Below are positions 892-20,102 of a DNA stretch of 43,431 nucleotides, piece by piece; positions within the stretch are counted from its first letter, which is position 1; every line of letters starts with the position of its first letter. Where the stretch lies: the NCBI RefSeq assembly GCF_026988555.1, contig NZ_JALSLB010000051.1, positions 1-43,431 on the forward strand. Reading direction: 5' to 3'. The notes beneath the pieces are model-generated. The model was not told where the DNA came from. It did not search any database and saw only the letters and a program-made list of their open reading frames with translations. The position numbers and the translations under genes are program-made. The stretch is from Thermococcus sp. Lineage in GTDB: Archaea; Methanobacteriota_B; Thermococci; Thermococcales; Thermococcaceae.

Positions 892-987
892 TCACCTCTT
901 CTTCGTCTCCTCCCTGAGGAGCAGGCCGATTGGCAGGCTCAGGATTGCTCCGAACAGGAAGCCGAGGAGGAACAGGACGGGATCCAT
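892..987 (-). CDS. 31-residue single-pass membrane protein, last gene of the small-gene operon
   Basis: ATG 987-985 is preceded by GGAGGCGGTGAG; the stop is 892-894. The protein begins MDPVLFLLGFLFGAILSLP and continues with a leucine-rich stretch to the charged tail REETKKR, so it has one predicted transmembrane helix with a basic C-terminus. It begins 6 bases after the nuclease-like gene (994-1515). Tiny membrane proteins at the end of viral operons can be holin-like, coat-associated or membrane anchors for a neighbour; the sequence does not decide between these. Confidence 0.6.
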   Translation of the reverse strand: MDPVLFLLGFLFGAILSLPIGLLLREETKKR

Positions 988-993
988 CTCCGC

Positions 994-1515
994 TCACCGC
1001 CTCCCCAGCAATTCTTTCCTGATGAAGTGCTCGACCATGCCGTATGATGAGAACCGTTGAGCCTTCTCCAGTGGAAGGAGAACCACCTTCCGGCCGTCGG
1101 TGAGCTCTCGCCTCACGGCGAGGCCTTTCTCGACCCGCCAGACGAGCCATTTTACTTTAGTCTTGACTATGTAGTAGGCCGGCACGCCGAGGTAGAAGGC
1201 GAGGTCTTCGAGGAACGTGTACTGCGGCTCATCAAAGATGGCGTAGCCGTCGTCCTCGCCGAGCTGGTACCTGCTTTTAACCTCAAGGAGAGCTAAGGGA
1301 ATGCCGTTCTTGAAGTCCCAGAGGATCAGGTCGATGTCGAAGAGGCCTATCCTTGTTACCCCGTGCTTCCTCTTGACCTCCTCGAGGAGGTCGGAGAATT
1401 CTTCATGAGCGTCAAAGCCGTGGAGCTGGTTGATGATGGCCGAGAGGGTTCTCCTCCTCACGCGCCGGAGCTCCTGGCTGGTTGTGATGAGGTTCCTGCG
1501 GTCGCCTTCGGTCAT
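994..1515 (-). CDS. PD-(D/E)XK nuclease-like protein
   Basis: This 173-residue protein has a core that reads GLFDIDLILWDFKNG then LALLEVKSRY. The spaced D...E-V-K pattern across two strands is the catalytic signature of the PD-(D/E)XK nuclease fold (restriction enzymes, Holliday-junction resolvases, Cas4/RecB-like). A helical N-terminus with many arginines (ELRRVRRRTL) precedes it, and a strand-rich tail with WLVWRVEKG follows. The start ATG overlaps the stop of the upstream gene by four bases (ATGA), so translation is coupled. In a mobile element the likely roles are DNA processing, repair or host-DNA attack. The family call comes from the motif only. Confidence 0.6.
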   Translation of the reverse strand: MTEGDRRNLITTSQELRRVRRRTLSAIINQLHGFDAHEEFSDLLEEVKRKHGVTRIGLFDIDLILWDFKNGIPLALLEVKSRYQLGEDDGYAIFDEPQYTFLEDLAFYLGVPAYYIVKTKVKWLVWRVEKGLAVRRELTDGRKVVLLPLEKAQRFSSYGMVEHFIRKELLGRR

Positions 1516-1796
1516 GATGAATCACCTTGAGAGTCGAAGATTTCTTCGTCAGGGACCTCGTCGAAATAATTTTCACTCCCTGGAGCCGAAAGTTCCTTCG
1601 ACTCCTGGCTGAGCCATTTCAGAAACTCAATGATGGCGTCTCCCTTCGCTTTGCTAATTTCGAATGTCCTGTTTTCGCTCCCATAGTTCAGGTGAACTTC
1701 ATATCTGTGGGTTTTTGAGTTGTAGTAAAATGAGATCCTCTCAATGTTTTTCGGATCGATTTCAAATCCGTGCCAGCCAGCAGAAACGTAAATCAT
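1512..1796 (-). CDS. hypothetical 94-residue protein, strand-rich
   Basis: The start ATG 1796 follows a strong AAAGGAGGTGG. The N-terminal 60 residues alternate strands (IERISFYYN, YEVHLNYG, RTFEIS) and end in a helix (AIIEFLKWLSQ). The last 30 residues are acidic and probably unstructured. The layout (antiparallel sheet plus one helix) resembles the product of 2515-2808 in general shape, so they may be distant relatives, but I cannot show it. It overlaps the nuclease-like gene by four bases. Confidence 0.6.
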   Translation of the reverse strand: MIYVSAGWHGFEIDPKNIERISFYYNSKTHRYEVHLNYGSENRTFEISKAKGDAIIEFLKWLSQESKELSAPGSENYFDEVPDEEIFDSQGDSS

Positions 1797-1809
1797 CGTG
1801 CCACCTCCT

Positions 1810-2019
1810 TTAACTGAGCACGATTCCCTCCGGGAAGGCTCTCCTGACCAGAGCCAGGGAGCTGGCCGGCACGTGGAGGACGAGTTTTATCGTCTTGTCC
1901 TCGAGCTGGATGTTAGCGACCTCGACCGGGATCAGGGTCCTGAGCTCTTCCACTTTTTCCAGAGCCAGGCTGAGATCCTTGAGCTTCTCCAGTTTGAAGT
2001 ATGAGATTAGAAGCGGCAT
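1810..2019 (-). CDS. hypothetical 69-residue protein
   Basis: I chose ATG 2019-2017 over the GTG at 2028 because GGGGTG sits six bases before the ATG. The protein starts MPLLISYFKLEKLKDLSLAL and continues as helix-strand-helix (TIKLVLHVPASSLALVRRAF). No family is recognised. It lies five bases downstream of the preceding operon gene and 13 bases before the next, so it is part of the same transcript. Confidence 0.55.
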   Translation of the reverse strand: MPLLISYFKLEKLKDLSLALEKVEELRTLIPVEVANIQLEDKTIKLVLHVPASSLALVRRAFPEGIVLS

Positions 2020-2024
2020 TGGTT

Positions 2025-2324
2025 TCACCCCTTTATCACCGCGTCGAGGGTTTTCTGTGTCGATGGCTTCTTCATGTAAGCTCTCAGTTCGTTTCTGAGG
2101 TCTTCACCGCGGAGGACGGGGAAAAGGCTCACTTCAGCGTTTTCTATGAGTCCCTGATGGTAGGCAAAGCTTAGTTCAATGACTTTTATCCTTGTTCCGG
2201 GCTGGAGTTCGCCTTTTTCCACCCTTGTGGTGTTCCAGAGGAAGAAGGTGACGACGGCTTCCTCAAAGTTTCTGTCGAGGAGGAGGTATTCTTCATCACC
2301 GACAACAGCGTAGAATTTTTTCAT
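2025..2324 (-). CDS. hypothetical 99-residue protein
   Basis: The start ATG 2324 has GGGAGGCTGGG upstream. It also overlaps the stop of the gene at 2321-2518 as ATGA. A longer frame to 2525 is antisense-like in composition and is discarded. The protein begins MKKFYAVVGDEEYLLLDRNF and continues with strands and short helices, ending in a basic KKPSTQKTLDAVIKG tail. No family is recognised; it may be a small alpha/beta DNA- or protein-binding module. Confidence 0.6.
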   Translation of the reverse strand: MKKFYAVVGDEEYLLLDRNFEEAVVTFFLWNTTRVEKGELQPGTRIKVIELSFAYHQGLIENAEVSLFPVLRGEDLRNELRAYMKKPSTQKTLDAVIKG

Positions 2325-2518
2325 TTTCCCAGCCTCCCGTAGTACCTGCGGACTGAAAAACGGGAAAAAGGAAAACTCCGCCTGACCATTAGCCTTACCC
2401 GCTCCTCGGCCTTCTCCCGCGTCTTCTCGAAGATGATGAATTCGAGGGGTTCCTCGCCGGGTGGGATTATGGTCACGCGCCAAGGTTTCATGATGGGAGG
2501 ACGGCCTCGCTTGGTCAT
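2321..2518 (-). CDS. hypothetical 65-residue basic protein
   Basis: Its ATG overlaps the stop of the upstream gene (2515-2808), and its stop overlaps the next ATG, giving two consecutive ATGA couplings. The protein is very basic: MTKRGRPP at the start, and RRSFPFSRFSVRRYYGRLGK at the end. A central EKAEERVRLMVRR helix follows a strand. The charge suggests nucleic-acid binding, but no family is recognised. Confidence 0.6.
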   Translation of the reverse strand: MTKRGRPPIMKPWRVTIIPPGEEPLEFIIFEKTREKAEERVRLMVRRSFPFSRFSVRRYYGRLGK

Positions 2519-2808
2519 TCTCCACCCTCCTCGCTCAGGAGTTTCAGCCTGCCTTTCCAGGATCGAACCTTGCCGTCCCTGATGTAGATCCAGCCGAGGT
2601 CCTTTGCAATGGGAAGGGTGTTTATCAGCTTCTCGAACTCCTCAAGGCCGTCGATTCCCTCCTCCCACGGCTGGTTTGGGTCGTCCACCGTCCAGATTTT
2701 GATGAGGTCCTCACCGAGTTCTGTGTCAAGGTGGATGGCGGAAACGTTGTTGAGGTTGTAGAGGTTGACGGTCCCGCTCTTCGAGTCCTCAATAACGAGC
2801 CAGCTCAT
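2515..2808 (-). CDS. hypothetical 97-residue acidic protein
   Basis: The start ATG 2808 follows AAAGGAGGG. The N-terminal strands (SWLVIEDSKSGTVNLYNLNN, then IKIWTVDD) are followed by a helix (EFEKLINTL) and a final strand pair (WIYIRDGKVRSWKGRLKLL). The pattern resembles small PH-like or split-barrel folds. No catalytic motif is visible. It overlaps the following gene by four bases and lies three bases after the upstream gene. Confidence 0.6.
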   Translation of the reverse strand: MSWLVIEDSKSGTVNLYNLNNVSAIHLDTELGEDLIKIWTVDDPNQPWEEGIDGLEEFEKLINTLPIAKDLGWIYIRDGKVRSWKGRLKLLSEEGGE

Positions 2809-2811
2809 GCA

Positions 2812-2985
2812 TCATCCCTCCTTTGAGATGGGGTTTGAACGAATGAAAAGTTCGATGTGGCTCTCACTCCAGTCTCTAAGCCGTCTCGCAATTTCTGGTG
2901 GATAACCAAGTTCTCTTAGCTTCCTGTAGATTTCTCTCCCCTCTTCTTTGCTCCTCATTTCCTTGTACCAGATCGTGGCCATCAT
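2812..2985 (-). CDS. hypothetical 57-residue helical protein
   Basis: The start is an ATGATG at 2985-2980 overlapping the stop of the upstream gene, with GGTGG upstream; the stop is at 2812-2814. The protein begins MMATIWYKEMRSKEEGREIY and then has KLRELGYPPEIARRLRDWS, a two-helix arrangement with a possible turn at GYPP. It could be a small DNA-binding or adaptor protein, but no family is recognised. Confidence 0.55.
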   Translation of the reverse strand: MMATIWYKEMRSKEEGREIYRKLRELGYPPEIARRLRDWSESHIELFIRSNPISKEG

Positions 2986-3170
2986 CTCACCACCCTTGTT
3001 CTGTGTTTGTTCCTTATAGGGACTGAACCAGAAATCTGGAGAATTCGGGAGAATTCTTCAGGTGGCACAAGCATTGCTCCCTCGTCCAGCACCCAGTCGG
3101 CTTCTCTGAGCTTTTTCAAAGCCTCCCGCAGGGGGAGTTTGCGGAGGTCGTAGATGGACACTACCTTCAT
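2982..3170 (-). CDS. hypothetical 62-residue protein, first gene of the small-gene operon
   Basis: ATG 3170-3168 follows GGTGATC, and a TATA-like element (3204-3211) lies at promoter distance, so this is the promoter-proximal gene of the nine-gene operon 892-3170. The sequence MKVVSIYDLRKLPLREALKK then EADWVLDEGAMLVPPEEFSR resembles the short antitoxin-like proteins that pair with AbrB or PIN modules, but this is only a general likeness. The C-terminus is basic (RNKHRTRVVR). Confidence 0.55.
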   Translation of the reverse strand: MKVVSIYDLRKLPLREALKKLREADWVLDEGAMLVPPEEFSRILQISGSVPIRNKHRTRVVR

Positions 3171-4413: not shown

Positions 4414-5043
4414 ATGGTAAAATCGGGTGGAGTGTCCGGACACTCCAATGTGAAGGCGGAGGAGCAGGTCGGAGCGCGGCGGCGGAAGGCCAGGAAGCGC
4501 CTTTCCCCGCGTCTGCACATCACGCTACCGCCAGAGGTCTACAGGAAGGCCAAGGAGCGCTGGGATAACGTGAGCCGAGTGGTGGCTAGCCTGCTTGAAG
4601 TGGCTTTGTCTGAGGATTTGACGGTCGAGGAGGTCGTGACGGCGGTAACGCTCCTTAGGAGCGGCGCTTTGGTGGTAAATCCTCCTGCATATGCGGGGGT
4701 TGCCGAGCCTGGTCAAAGGCGGTGGACTCAAGATCCACTCCCGCAGGGGTTCCGGGGTTCAAATCCCCGCCCCCGCACCAGAGCCCTTTGCTGGAAAGCA
4801 AAGTCGAAACTTTTTAAACCCTTCCAGCAGGGGGTAAGCCAGCCTGAGTTGTACTTGGACTCCGGCTACGACTCCTCGTCGATGATCCGTCTCATCCACG
4901 TCCCCCGGAGGAACCATGCCAGGGCCACCAGTGCTGCTATGAAGTTGCTCATACCCATTCCGAAGAAAACTCCTCTGCTCGTGAATCCGAAGAGTCTCGC
5001 AAGGGGCACTGTGATACCGAGTACCGTCACCGCCCCAACGTAG
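4414..5043 (+). CDS. probable int(N) fragment of an SSV-type integrase, with RHH-like N-terminus, fused through tRNA-Leu
   Basis: Residues about 33-66 (LHITLPPEVYRKAKERW then VSRVVASLLEVAL) look like a ribbon-helix-helix domain, with a basic leader (RRRKARKR). From residue 94 the frame runs straight through the tRNA-Leu gene at 4693 and on into sequence antisense to the MATE gene. In SSV-type elements the attachment site lies inside the integrase gene, so integration splits it and leaves int(N) ending in the tRNA. The part after about 4780 would then be chromosomal read-through, not native protein. No catalytic Arg/Tyr residues are present, as expected for the N-terminal part. The alternative is a stand-alone RHH regulator beside a tRNA. 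The C-terminal half with the catalytic tyrosine should lie left of the window. Confidence 0.6.
   Translation: MVKSGGVSGHSNVKAEEQVGARRRKARKRLSPRLHITLPPEVYRKAKERWDNVSRVVASLLEVALSEDLTVEEVVTAVTLLRSGALVVNPPAYAGVAEPGQRRWTQDPLPQGFRGSNPRPRTRALCWKAKSKLFKPFQQGVSQPELYLDSGYDSSSMIRLIHVPRRNHARATSAAMKLLIPIPKKTPLLVNPKSLARGTVIPSTVTAPT
4428..4447. promoter_or_regulatory. 20-base perfect palindrome at the start of the int(N) gene
   Basis: TGGAGTGTCCGGACACTCCA is its own reverse complement over all 20 bases. It lies at codons 5-12 of the frame starting at 4414, right after the transcription start expected from the TATA at 4381. RHH proteins bind palindromes, so autorepression by the encoded RHH-like domain is the simplest idea (inference). 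Confidence 0.6.
4693..4780 (+). tRNA. tRNA-Leu (anticodon CAA), CCA encoded
   Basis: The acceptor GCGGGGG pairs with CCCCCGC (4770-4776), followed by discriminator A 4777 and an encoded CCA. The anticodon stem GTGGA/TCCAC encloses CTCAAGA, giving anticodon CAA. The T arm is CGGGG-TTCAAAT-CCCCG, and the long variable arm is typical of class II tRNA-Leu. No clear TATA element lies at the usual distance upstream; instead the upstream sequence is the coding sequence of the int(N)-like frame. This fits an attachment-site copy, with the promoter-bearing copy at the other end of the element. Confidence 0.9.
4786..4815 (+). terminator. hairpin and T-run after tRNA-Leu
   Basis: CTTTGCT (4786-4792), loop GGAA, AGCAAAG (4797-4803) forms a perfect 7-base stem. 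It is followed by a five-T run (4811-4815). It sits immediately after the tRNA and before the convergent MATE gene end, so it probably ends tRNA transcription. Confidence 0.5.
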
Positions 5044-18500: not shown

Positions 18501-20102
18501 AGCTACGCCAGAACCGGATACGAGCTCTCACACTACAACATTGACGTTCAGCTCCTTGGTGTCACCGCAACACCGAGCAGGGTATACCAAGACTTCAGTG
18601 AACCTGGCAACTACACGCTCGGTGTGACCTACAGGAACACGATGGGAGACGTCGATGTGTCCTCTTTCGGATACGGTCTCGGCAACCTTGAGAACGCGAA
18701 CGCTTACCAGCTCCAGATCAACCAGGATCAGTGGCAGATCGTGGACATCATAAACGCCACACCGGCACAGAAGCTCTACTACTTCAAAATCGGTATAACC
18801 GCACCTGAGAACAAGAGCGCTGACCTCGATCTCTACGTATTCTACTACACCTCATGGGATGCGCTCATGGCGGACCTGAACAGCGGAATTCTAGGGCAGA
18901 ATGCCACCAAGATCTACACCGATCAGATAGGTCCGACCGCCTACGAGAGCCTTGACCTTTTCATGCCCGCTCCAGGATACTATATGGCCGTTGTTAATGG
19001 CTATAGCGTCCCGATAGCCAACATGAGCTACATATACTACAGGCAGGTTCTCAAGGACAACGGGCAGGTGATCACCGATGAGACCCCATTCACCCTGACC
19101 AACGGTGCCTCTGCCCAGGTTGGTTACACTGTAGAACTCACCGCACCGGGAACATACCTGGGTGTCGTGGGTCTCAAGGACGTTGAGAGCGGCATGGCAC
19201 TTACCTACGCCCCAATGATACTGCAGGTGGGCAAACCTCAGATGTACGTTGCCCTAATGGGCACGCCGACCCTCGGAAAGCCATCGCTGATGACCCTCAA
19301 ACTGCTTGACAAGGCCACCATGATGCCAATCGAGGGTGAGGCAACCGTCTACATCAACGGTCAGCAGTACATAGCGGAGAACGGCGAGGTGCAGTTCTAC
19401 ATCACTCCGCTCCAGAGGACTTACACATTCAACATCGATGTCGTGACGCCGAACTACCAGGACTACACCGGAACGTTCACCCTGAACGTTCAGGAACCAG
19501 CACAGAGCAGGGTTCTCTCCCCGCTTCAGACGGCCCCGTATGTTGCAGAGGGCGCCGGTTCGGTCACCACCTACGGCGCAACCGACACCATGCTGAACTT
19601 TACAGTTGATGGTCCAAGTGGCGAGACCGGCTACGTCTTCGTAACCCTGCCGACGGACACTCAGATGATAACCGTTCAGCCCAACAGCCACATACTCAAC
19701 TACTACACTTTGGAATACAAGAACGCAATATACCTGATCATAGAGGTCAAGTACGCCTCGCCCGTCACCATTAACGTCGAGTATAAGACTTCCCGCTGGA
19801 TAGTCAGCACCTGGAACTTCGTCTGGTATATGCTGTACTGGAGGTACGACCAGAAGTTCAACGACCTGTATCAGAAGGCCGTTAAACTCGGCGTCGATAA
19901 CGAAACCCTCCAGGAGGCCCTGAAGTACAAGCAGACTGCGGACAACTACTTTGAGCAGGCCAAGAAATACATGGTGAACCCATCGAGGCAGCAGCTTAGC
20001 ATCATGGCGTTGCCCTATGTCAGGAGGGCCTATCTCAACATACTTAAGGCATACAACCTCCTTGAGACTGCTGTTGAGGCGGCCCAGCAGACCGAGGGCT
20101 GA
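15594..20102 (+). CDS. pyrolysin-like extracellular subtilisin-family protease
   Basis: This 1502-residue S8-family serine protease has a signal peptide (MSRKALSLLVAVVMLLSVVP...) followed by a propeptide of about 100-150 residues. Catalytic Asp199 is in IAIVDTGAD, His442 in QHGTHVSG, oxyanion Asn544 in AAGNDGPS and Ser635 in GTSMATPH. About 240 residues separate Asp and His, an insertion typical of pyrolysin and its relatives. The 850 residues after the catalytic domain are beta-rich and Asn-X-Thr/Ser-rich, ending in a helical segment (LYQKAVKLGVDNETLQEALK). AGGAGGTG precedes ATG 15594. The enzyme would digest external proteins to feed peptide fermentation. The gene stands alone behind its own promoter. 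Confidence 0.93.
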   Translation: MSRKALSLLVAVVMLLSVVPAALPYTAASPTNTSAVASAPTSINNHEAPTLQELNPNVAKYIDMLHGTLLSSGRKDVRLIIAPQTGYGDQVLKALKALGAKIDPISKPKYDFIVATLPTDKLPALKSMRGLAYVWEDKTVKLPKPVKPERNLKAPISKITTSGAGGYDPFAWDMYAIDAPQAREEYNISGSHALIAIVDTGADVAQPYLQQTPDGRRKIIYWMDETGEGNADVSYTFNSTQVVGGTVSLSLTNVTLDWGPYATLVMRPSEYTTIPQLNITLDFGGVNVTNGTYHFGFLPERYFDINFDHNYDEIYFVLVTPDSEVYFYPVPLQLNTTDANTLHAIVNGTLNTTILKAMMTIPSGVNYTYDVNLSNAYQITPFDSTGDYILLGPGSVSNTTYVQFSEGQASVIQVANGTVYNSIVLSKVSTDTVVFGWDGGQHGTHVSGTAAGYGLPGSYFQGLEGVAPGAQLLEFKSLSSIGYGATSWIINGMIDAALSGADVISMSLGGLWNGYNDGIEDPENFYANLLTEMFGVVFSIAAGNDGPSTTTVGAPGDADLVITVGAFRDGASWSFFHGLNDVYSGPASFSSRGPRLDGMVKPDVMAPGEFVFSSLPIWSVGYYGTWASDFWDGTSMATPHVTGAVALLVDYARIHNLTYDPFMIKRALELSAEPVSGASPIDQGYGLIKIDRAIQELIKLSKEKSTYIYAGTTFGPYQNPLGEKQLPLFANILFNGWFQLNHHFPYLYRGIYLRNERPGTVPIYIYGMVYNRAGALVPVNGTYDISTSVPWLKVNTNEITAHLNKANFSLAGFRYSDFYNTTGLVYVTVDYSQLQKPGTYVGYVYIDDPSTDYIDGAVPVVVTVPINKNGAATGHLSDVEMSGQAKHYYVDVPTGTSELKVTVSVPVDKNGVPMGRVRPVITTPRGIVMASIVPNYYFVGAGSPYMTYTWTFYDPQPGTWEVTAYSSVSSYARTGYELSHYNIDVQLLGVTATPSRVYQDFSEPGNYTLGVTYRNTMGDVDVSSFGYGLGNLENANAYQLQINQDQWQIVDIINATPAQKLYYFKIGITAPENKSADLDLYVFYYTSWDALMADLNSGILGQNATKIYTDQIGPTAYESLDLFMPAPGYYMAVVNGYSVPIANMSYIYYRQVLKDNGQVITDETPFTLTNGASAQVGYTVELTAPGTYLGVVGLKDVESGMALTYAPMILQVGKPQMYVALMGTPTLGKPSLMTLKLLDKATMMPIEGEATVYINGQQYIAENGEVQFYITPLQRTYTFNIDVVTPNYQDYTGTFTLNVQEPAQSRVLSPLQTAPYVAEGAGSVTTYGATDTMLNFTVDGPSGETGYVFVTLPTDTQMITVQPNSHILNYYTLEYKNAIYLIIEVKYASPVTINVEYKTSRWIVSTWNFVWYMLYWRYDQKFNDLYQKAVKLGVDNETLQEALKYKQTADNYFEQAKKYMVNPSRQQLSIMALPYVRRAYLNILKAYNLLETAVEAAQQTEG

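Follow-up and report, generated by a model that had tools for sequence, protein, structure and literature searches.

The operon and its closest described relatives

The closest described systems to the locus analysed here are pTN3 of Thermococcus nautili (KF527230), the provirus TKV4 of T. kodakarensis and the plasmid pT26-2 (GU056179). The integrase of pTN3/TKV4-like proviruses acts at tRNA-Leu (PMC5495485), and this provirus lineage has lately been proposed as 'Yamaviridae' (PMC12934983). The window (the whole stretch of DNA that was analysed, 43,431 nucleotides) corresponds to contig C51 in the draft genome of a member of the Thermococcaceae (Thermococcus sp.), and its left end lies inside an integrated element. 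Between 892 and 3170 the minus strand of this element carries nine tightly packed open reading frames (ORFs), named A1-A9 in the order of transcription. The left end of the window is a pTN3/TKV4-like provirus integrated in tRNA-Leu, and the nine genes form an operon with a constant A6-A8 core and exchangeable cassettes.

The operon region was compared with that of 13 other genomes (14 elements including the window); operons were reconstructed and their proteins clustered. A8 is present in all 14 elements by construction of the set. The nine genes are as follows.

A1, 2982..3170, minus strand: 62 amino acids; counterpart of pTN3 TNaP3-10 (61% identity), mostly operon gene 1 or 2; 10/14 elements
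A2, 2812..2985, minus strand: 57 amino acids, helical; shortened version of an 87-89 amino acid cassette protein seen in 3 other elements (4/14 with the window)
A3, 2515..2808, minus strand: 97 amino acids, cassette protein; 5/14 elements
A4, 2321..2518, minus strand: 65 amino acids; counterpart of TNaP3-09 (67% identity), N-terminal RGRPP (AT-hook-like); 9/14 elements and one pT26-2-family element
A5, 2025..2324, minus strand: 99 amino acids, cassette protein; C-terminal tail QKTLDAVI, which resembles a PCNA-interacting protein (PIP) box; 3/14 elements
A6, 1810..2028, minus strand: 72 amino acids (GTG at 2028) or 69 amino acids (in-frame ATG at 2019, the usual form among relatives); counterpart of TNaP3-07
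A7, 1512..1796, minus strand: 94 amino acids, acidic tail ending EEIFDSQGDSS; 6/14 elements and plasmid pT26-2 (t26-29)
A8, 994..1515, minus strand: 173 amino acids, putative PD-(D/E)XK nuclease with a predicted Hjc-like fold; counterpart of TNaP3-06
A9, 892..987, minus strand: 31 amino acids, predicted single-span membrane protein (span read from the sequence, one end basic); 6/14 elements

Five junctions within A1-A9 are overlaps of four base pairs (bp): 2982-2985, 2515-2518, 2321-2324, 2025-2028 (GTGA) and 1512-1515. The remaining junctions are gaps of 3, 13 and 6 bp, and Shine-Dalgarno-like sequence is found 5' of the ORFs. An earlier note on this DNA had described nine minus-strand ORFs of 31-173 codons in this interval, all of which are present, and four 4-bp overlaps, each of which was confirmed; the fifth, at 2025-2028, had been missed.

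All nine proteins have homologues in other Thermococcaceae genomes, in operons of the same type. The ratio of nonsynonymous to synonymous divergence (dN/dS) is 0.10-0.37 against homologues with unsaturated dS (0.28-0.37 for A1), the values being approximate because synonymous divergence is near saturation. For A2 dS was saturated, so this gene was judged by the ratio of proportions of differing sites (pN/pS), which is 0.16-0.18. The nine ORFs are real, more than chance would give, and are under purifying selection.

Scans of all nine proteins against Pfam, NCBIfam, PHROGs and PADLOC found nothing above cut-off, and Rfam returned no RNA except tRNA. The view that the small proteins match nothing therefore stands for these four collections, but not for the described elements: pTN3 has direct counterparts of four of the nine. 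These four (A1, A4, A6 and A8, matching TNaP3-10, -09, -07 and -06) share 61-70% amino acid identity with their counterparts, three of which are annotated merely as hypothetical. In pTN3, where the region spans TNaP3-04 to -11, the type of integration site, the integrase and the direction of the operon are as in the window. The pTN3 operon sits before TNaP3-05, which lies immediately before the MCM helicase gene; the operon order and the start of the TNaP3-05 counterpart in the window match this layout, and the MCM position would lie past the contig end. However, pTN3 lacks A2, A3, A5, A7 and A9, contains TNaP3-08 and TNaP3-11 instead, and has no AbrB pair inside the gene series.

The locus L023 is presumably TKV4. 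Its nuclease is 69% identical to A8, a counterpart of A6 lies just upstream, and capsid and ATPase genes lie downstream, but its cassette genes and its A8-A9 spacing differ from those of the window. Plasmid pT26-2 (t26-26 to t26-29) possesses a diverged nuclease (t26-28), an A7-type protein (t26-29) nearby and a TNaP3-08-type protein that is 47% identical, tail included. Its replication protein is different from that of the window element, and A6 was not found in pT26-2.

A constant core and exchangeable cassettes

Across the relatives only two genes of the operon are constant. In each of the 13 elements in which the position is readable, A6 lies a short way upstream of A8, and a family-wide search with A6 and A8 profiles always placed the two within about 700 bp of each other, with A6 upstream; a few additional A6 matches exist (E ~1e-4). 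The cassette slots of other elements are occupied by different, unrelated small genes. Because only A6 and A8 are constant and the others are replaced by unrelated genes, the operon is not a fixed nine-protein complex. The idea in the earlier note that co-translation reflects a single complex thus found no support for most of the genes, since A2, A3, A5, A7 and A9 are each present in 3-6 of the 14 elements and are swapped. The proposed pairing of the nuclease with the 31-residue membrane protein is likewise not obligatory, given the distribution of A9. Neither outcome that the note had named as a refutation was seen: similarity to PD-(D/E)XK is supported, and the operon of the relatives is not in fragments. 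The virus-like and plasmid setting in Thermococcus that the note had in view is correct.

The nuclease was also sought without bias, in 14 genomes that contain a pTN3-type capsid gene, and 11 of them possess it. Two of the three genomes lacking it (G062 and G067) have cut contigs, and in the third (G017) the entire region including MCM was lost. In G017 an IS607-type serine recombinase/TnpB-like pair is located where the operon and MCM were lost (L064 9202-10987). All relatives carry a double-jelly-roll (DJR) capsid gene and/or a packaging ATPase gene, the sole exception being the short contig L029. One capsid gene (G016:C8:80805-81746) has an in-frame TGA, which may mean a defective provirus in that relative. 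The operon of complete relatives leads to the viral MCM helicase or to an alternative coiled-coil protein. Three of the four coiled-coil proteins, those of L029-L032, begin with AT-hook-like GRPPKWKQ.

Integrated pT26-2-family elements also carry a diverged version of the nuclease. Two kinds of cassette, A4-type and L020_11229-type, show 78% and 82% identity when the proviruses are compared with these elements. Judged by these identities, cassettes move between two families, the DJR proviruses and the pT26-2 plasmids. The cross-family pairs (L067 and L072, integrated pT26-2-family elements, versus L030 and L020) indicate recent exchange.

The nuclease A8

Sequence and model together support the placement of A8 in the PD-(D/E)XK nuclease superfamily, a fold that the earlier note had already recognised. 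Five residues (D60, D62, E78, K80 and Q98) are invariant in 14 aligned A8 sequences and also in the diverged plasmid-family homologues. PF24579 (PDDEXK_14, 'phage putative PDDEXK endonuclease') gave sub-threshold hits in three family members (E 1.8e-4 to 9e-3); the best score, 22.2 bits in a diverged member, is below the cut-off of 25 bits, and A8 itself had no match. The AlphaFold2 model of A8 contains an alpha-beta-beta-beta-alpha-beta core; this model and that of A6 each rest on two sequences. When the A8 model was searched against PDB with Foldseek, the best 18 matches were archaeal Hjc, from several organisms, except for rank 12 (probability 0.96-1.0, E 6e-4 to 2e-2, template modelling score up to 0.63).

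A profile comparison of A8 with the Hjc proteins of its host and of related hosts gave E 6e-4 over E-x-K and the next helix, a score reached by none of 100 shuffled decoys. Archaeal Hjc structures (1GEF, 1HH1, 2EO0, 2WCW, 4TKD) have the order alpha-A, D, E-x-K, alpha-B in common with A8. A8 differs from them in being longer, with a basic N-terminal stretch of 33 residues and additional C-terminal strands and a helix, and in its invariant Q98. The invariant serine that precedes the catalytic aspartate in Hjc has no conserved counterpart in A8, the position being matched by spacing only. A PDB sequence-profile search gave chance matches only, and neither IMG/VR nor the phage collection yielded a relative of the nuclease. 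In BFVD the A8 model mainly matched unnamed phage proteins.

A8 is Hjc-like in its modelled fold and probably also in its action. The identification is not new, because its counterparts in pTN3 (TNaP3-06, annotated as 'archaeal type Holliday junction resolvase') and TKV4 (TK1364; PMC5894146) have already been named Holliday junction resolvases.

Proposed function of the operon

The reading proposed here, with moderate confidence, is an accessory operon upstream of the provirus replication module, in which A8 would cut branched DNA, A6 would be its partner or regulator and the rest would be exchangeable cassettes. A role in replication or recombination is suggested because the replication module is adjacent, the fold is Hjc-like, and names to this effect are published for pTN3 and TKV4. 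The substrates of A8 would be Holliday junctions or intermediates of replication or recombination, cut during MCM-driven replication of the element and ahead of packaging by its HerA/FtsK ATPase. A6 is the most likely candidate for a partner or regulator of A8. The cassettes, added where genes are translationally coupled, may encode proteins that bind DNA or interact with the host, and they would adapt the element to its host and its rivals. The operon is divergent from an AbrB/MazE-like regulator gene (P3, see below) and would be expressed early. For the functions suggested in the earlier note (DNA entry, exclusion of rival elements or egress) no support was found; the context points to replication and recombination.

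Several observations weigh against this proposal. The A8 model has a predicted local distance difference test score (pLDDT) of 68.5, derives from two sequences only, and is unreliable over residues 1-33. PF01870 (Hjc) did not match A8; its only match in the genome is the host Hjc on contig C59. As the host encodes its own Hjc, the need for an extra resolvase is not obvious. The alpha-A glutamate of Hjc varies within the family: it is E39 in A8, K in L030, and L or I in the plasmid-family homologues. Because the Pfam model was not matched and this glutamate is variable, A8 is called Hjc-like and is not to be filed as Hjc. In TKV4, transcription of the MCM gene begins at a site of its own (PMC4247193), so expression of the operon may be separate from that of MCM. 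Nor is MCM strictly linked to the nuclease: in four diverged elements (L029-L032) the nuclease is followed by the coiled-coil protein and not by MCM.

A different role would be defence, host takeover or superinfection exclusion, in which A8 would cut DNA of rivals or of the host and would be targeted by the small proteins, with A9 in the membrane. Carriage of the nuclease by two families of rival integrative elements (DJR proviruses and pT26-2 plasmids) would fit this role, as would the fast turnover of the neighbouring cassettes, which is typical of anti-defence or inter-element genes. Small ORFs in Thermococcales viruses are in addition suspected anti-defence genes (PMC12934983). However, PADLOC matched none of the proteins, no immunity partner was recognised, the fold matches are Hjc-like, and the membrane protein is missing from more than half of the elements (A9 in just 6/14). 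A defence role is considered unlikely.

It is distinctly unlikely that A8 nicks or processes the DNA of its own element at replication initiation or during integration/excision, with A6 or the coiled-coil protein targeting the DNA. No fold or motif links A8 to relaxases or nickases, and Hjc structures dominate its fold matches, although the constancy of the A6-A8 pair and the integrases borne by the carrier elements are compatible with such processing. The diverged elements, in which the next gene encodes a DNA-binding-like coiled-coil protein in place of MCM, also speak for it. The cutting of branched DNA by A8 remains the preferred reading.

Small proteins and C-terminal tails

The model of A6 is ferredoxin-like (beta-alpha-beta-beta-alpha-beta, pLDDT 84.5). 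Its fold search returned generic ferredoxin-fold matches only, with no specific structural relative.

A5 and the unrelated TNaP3-08 occupy one slot of the operon and have a common C-terminal tail, QxTL(D/N)x followed by two hydrophobic residues. The tail of the A5 slot was found in the window (2025-2324), L025 (5677-6087), L026, L027, L030 and pT26-2 (18611-18976); the TNaP3-08 relative in pT26-2 has QVSLLEVV at this position. PIP boxes of PCNA clients in Thermococcales include QRSITEFL and QRTLLQYI in EndoQ (PMC4858679). The PIP-box consensus is Qxxhxxaa, where a is aromatic (PMC4858679). The A5 and TNaP3-08 tails match its Qxxh part but not the whole, their final two residues being aliphatic (VI, VV, LI, LV, LM).

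A7-type proteins tend toward an acidic end with FDxQG (window 1512-1796; L021, L029 and L031; pT26-2 19692-19931). A further tail, YPELEFQVSGIDYT, is found on A2-type proteins of L020 (10406-10675), L029 (9217-9486) and L030 (11087-11350). An unrelated protein of 143 amino acids (L032 11300-11731) has the tail YPELEFQVSGIDYT as well, and A2 of the window is without it.

The PIP-box-like and FDxQG tails are leads only. The operon might be a transferable virus/plasmid module whose docking tails (QxTLxx, FDxQG) tie unrelated cassette proteins, and with them the nuclease/A6 pair, to the sliding clamp of the host or to the replisome, an arrangement that is regarded as very doubtful.

Provirus ends and surrounding genes

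The provirus assignment holds because a split integrase at tRNA-Leu, a 44-bp attachment (att) pair and synteny with pTN3 and with 12 other genomes are found together. The other features at the left end of the window are listed below.

L0, 2..148, minus strand: counterpart of TNaP3-05, of which only the start lies on the contig
L1, 195..419, minus strand: 74 amino acids; extends the minus-strand gene series, counterpart in L022 89% identical
P1, 549..713, plus strand: 54 amino acids, AbrB/MazE-like regulator on the opposite strand
P2, 720..881, plus strand: 53 amino acids, AbrB/MazE-like regulator on the opposite strand
P3, 3328..3537, plus strand: 69 amino acids, AbrB/MazE-like regulator with a PF04014 match above cut-off; its gene and the operon are divergent
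P4, 3640..4377, plus strand: 245 amino acids, counterpart of TNaP3-15 (65% identity)
Integrase, 4414..4743, plus strand: N-terminal part of a split SSV1-type integrase (81% identity to pTN3 TNaP3-17)
att repeat, 4691..4734, plus strand: 44 bp; identical copy on contig C14 (506-549), beside the C-terminal integrase part
tRNA-Leu (CAA), 4693..4780, plus strand: integration site, overlapped by the N-terminal integrase part

The twin AbrB/MazE-like genes (549-881) interrupt the minus-strand series, and L022 has the same layout. An immunity region was also considered and dropped: suspected element-specific operator repeats upstream of the operon did not reach significance against shuffles, nor does the window contain any.

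The C-terminal integrase part is located at the end of contig C14 and runs off it. No capsid or HerA/FtsK ATPase gene was found in the draft assembly, in which the middle of the element would fall into an assembly gap. The sole MCM match in the draft genome is not adjacent to element genes, and the viral MCM was not found. Since both provirus ends run off contigs, the best explanation for the absence of capsid, ATPase and MCM is a gap in the assembly between C51 and C14.

These missing genes, together with the truncation of A2 relative to its homologues, could also be taken to mean that the provirus is dead and its operon decaying into junk. Nine open frames under purifying selection argue otherwise, the assembly contains both att ends, and the missing middle lies where two contigs stop, so that decay is highly improbable.

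Implications

What had been a list of nine tiny genes of no known kind is now recognised as an operon, conserved and under selection, that belongs to a known virus lineage, and its constant core (the nuclease and A6) has been separated from cassettes that turn over. The tails would deserve more attention if docking to the clamp were shown. The host of TKV4, T. kodakarensis, is a genetically tractable species, which makes the function of the nuclease and A6 directly testable. DJR proviruses and pT26-2 plasmids have a nuclease family and cassettes in common.

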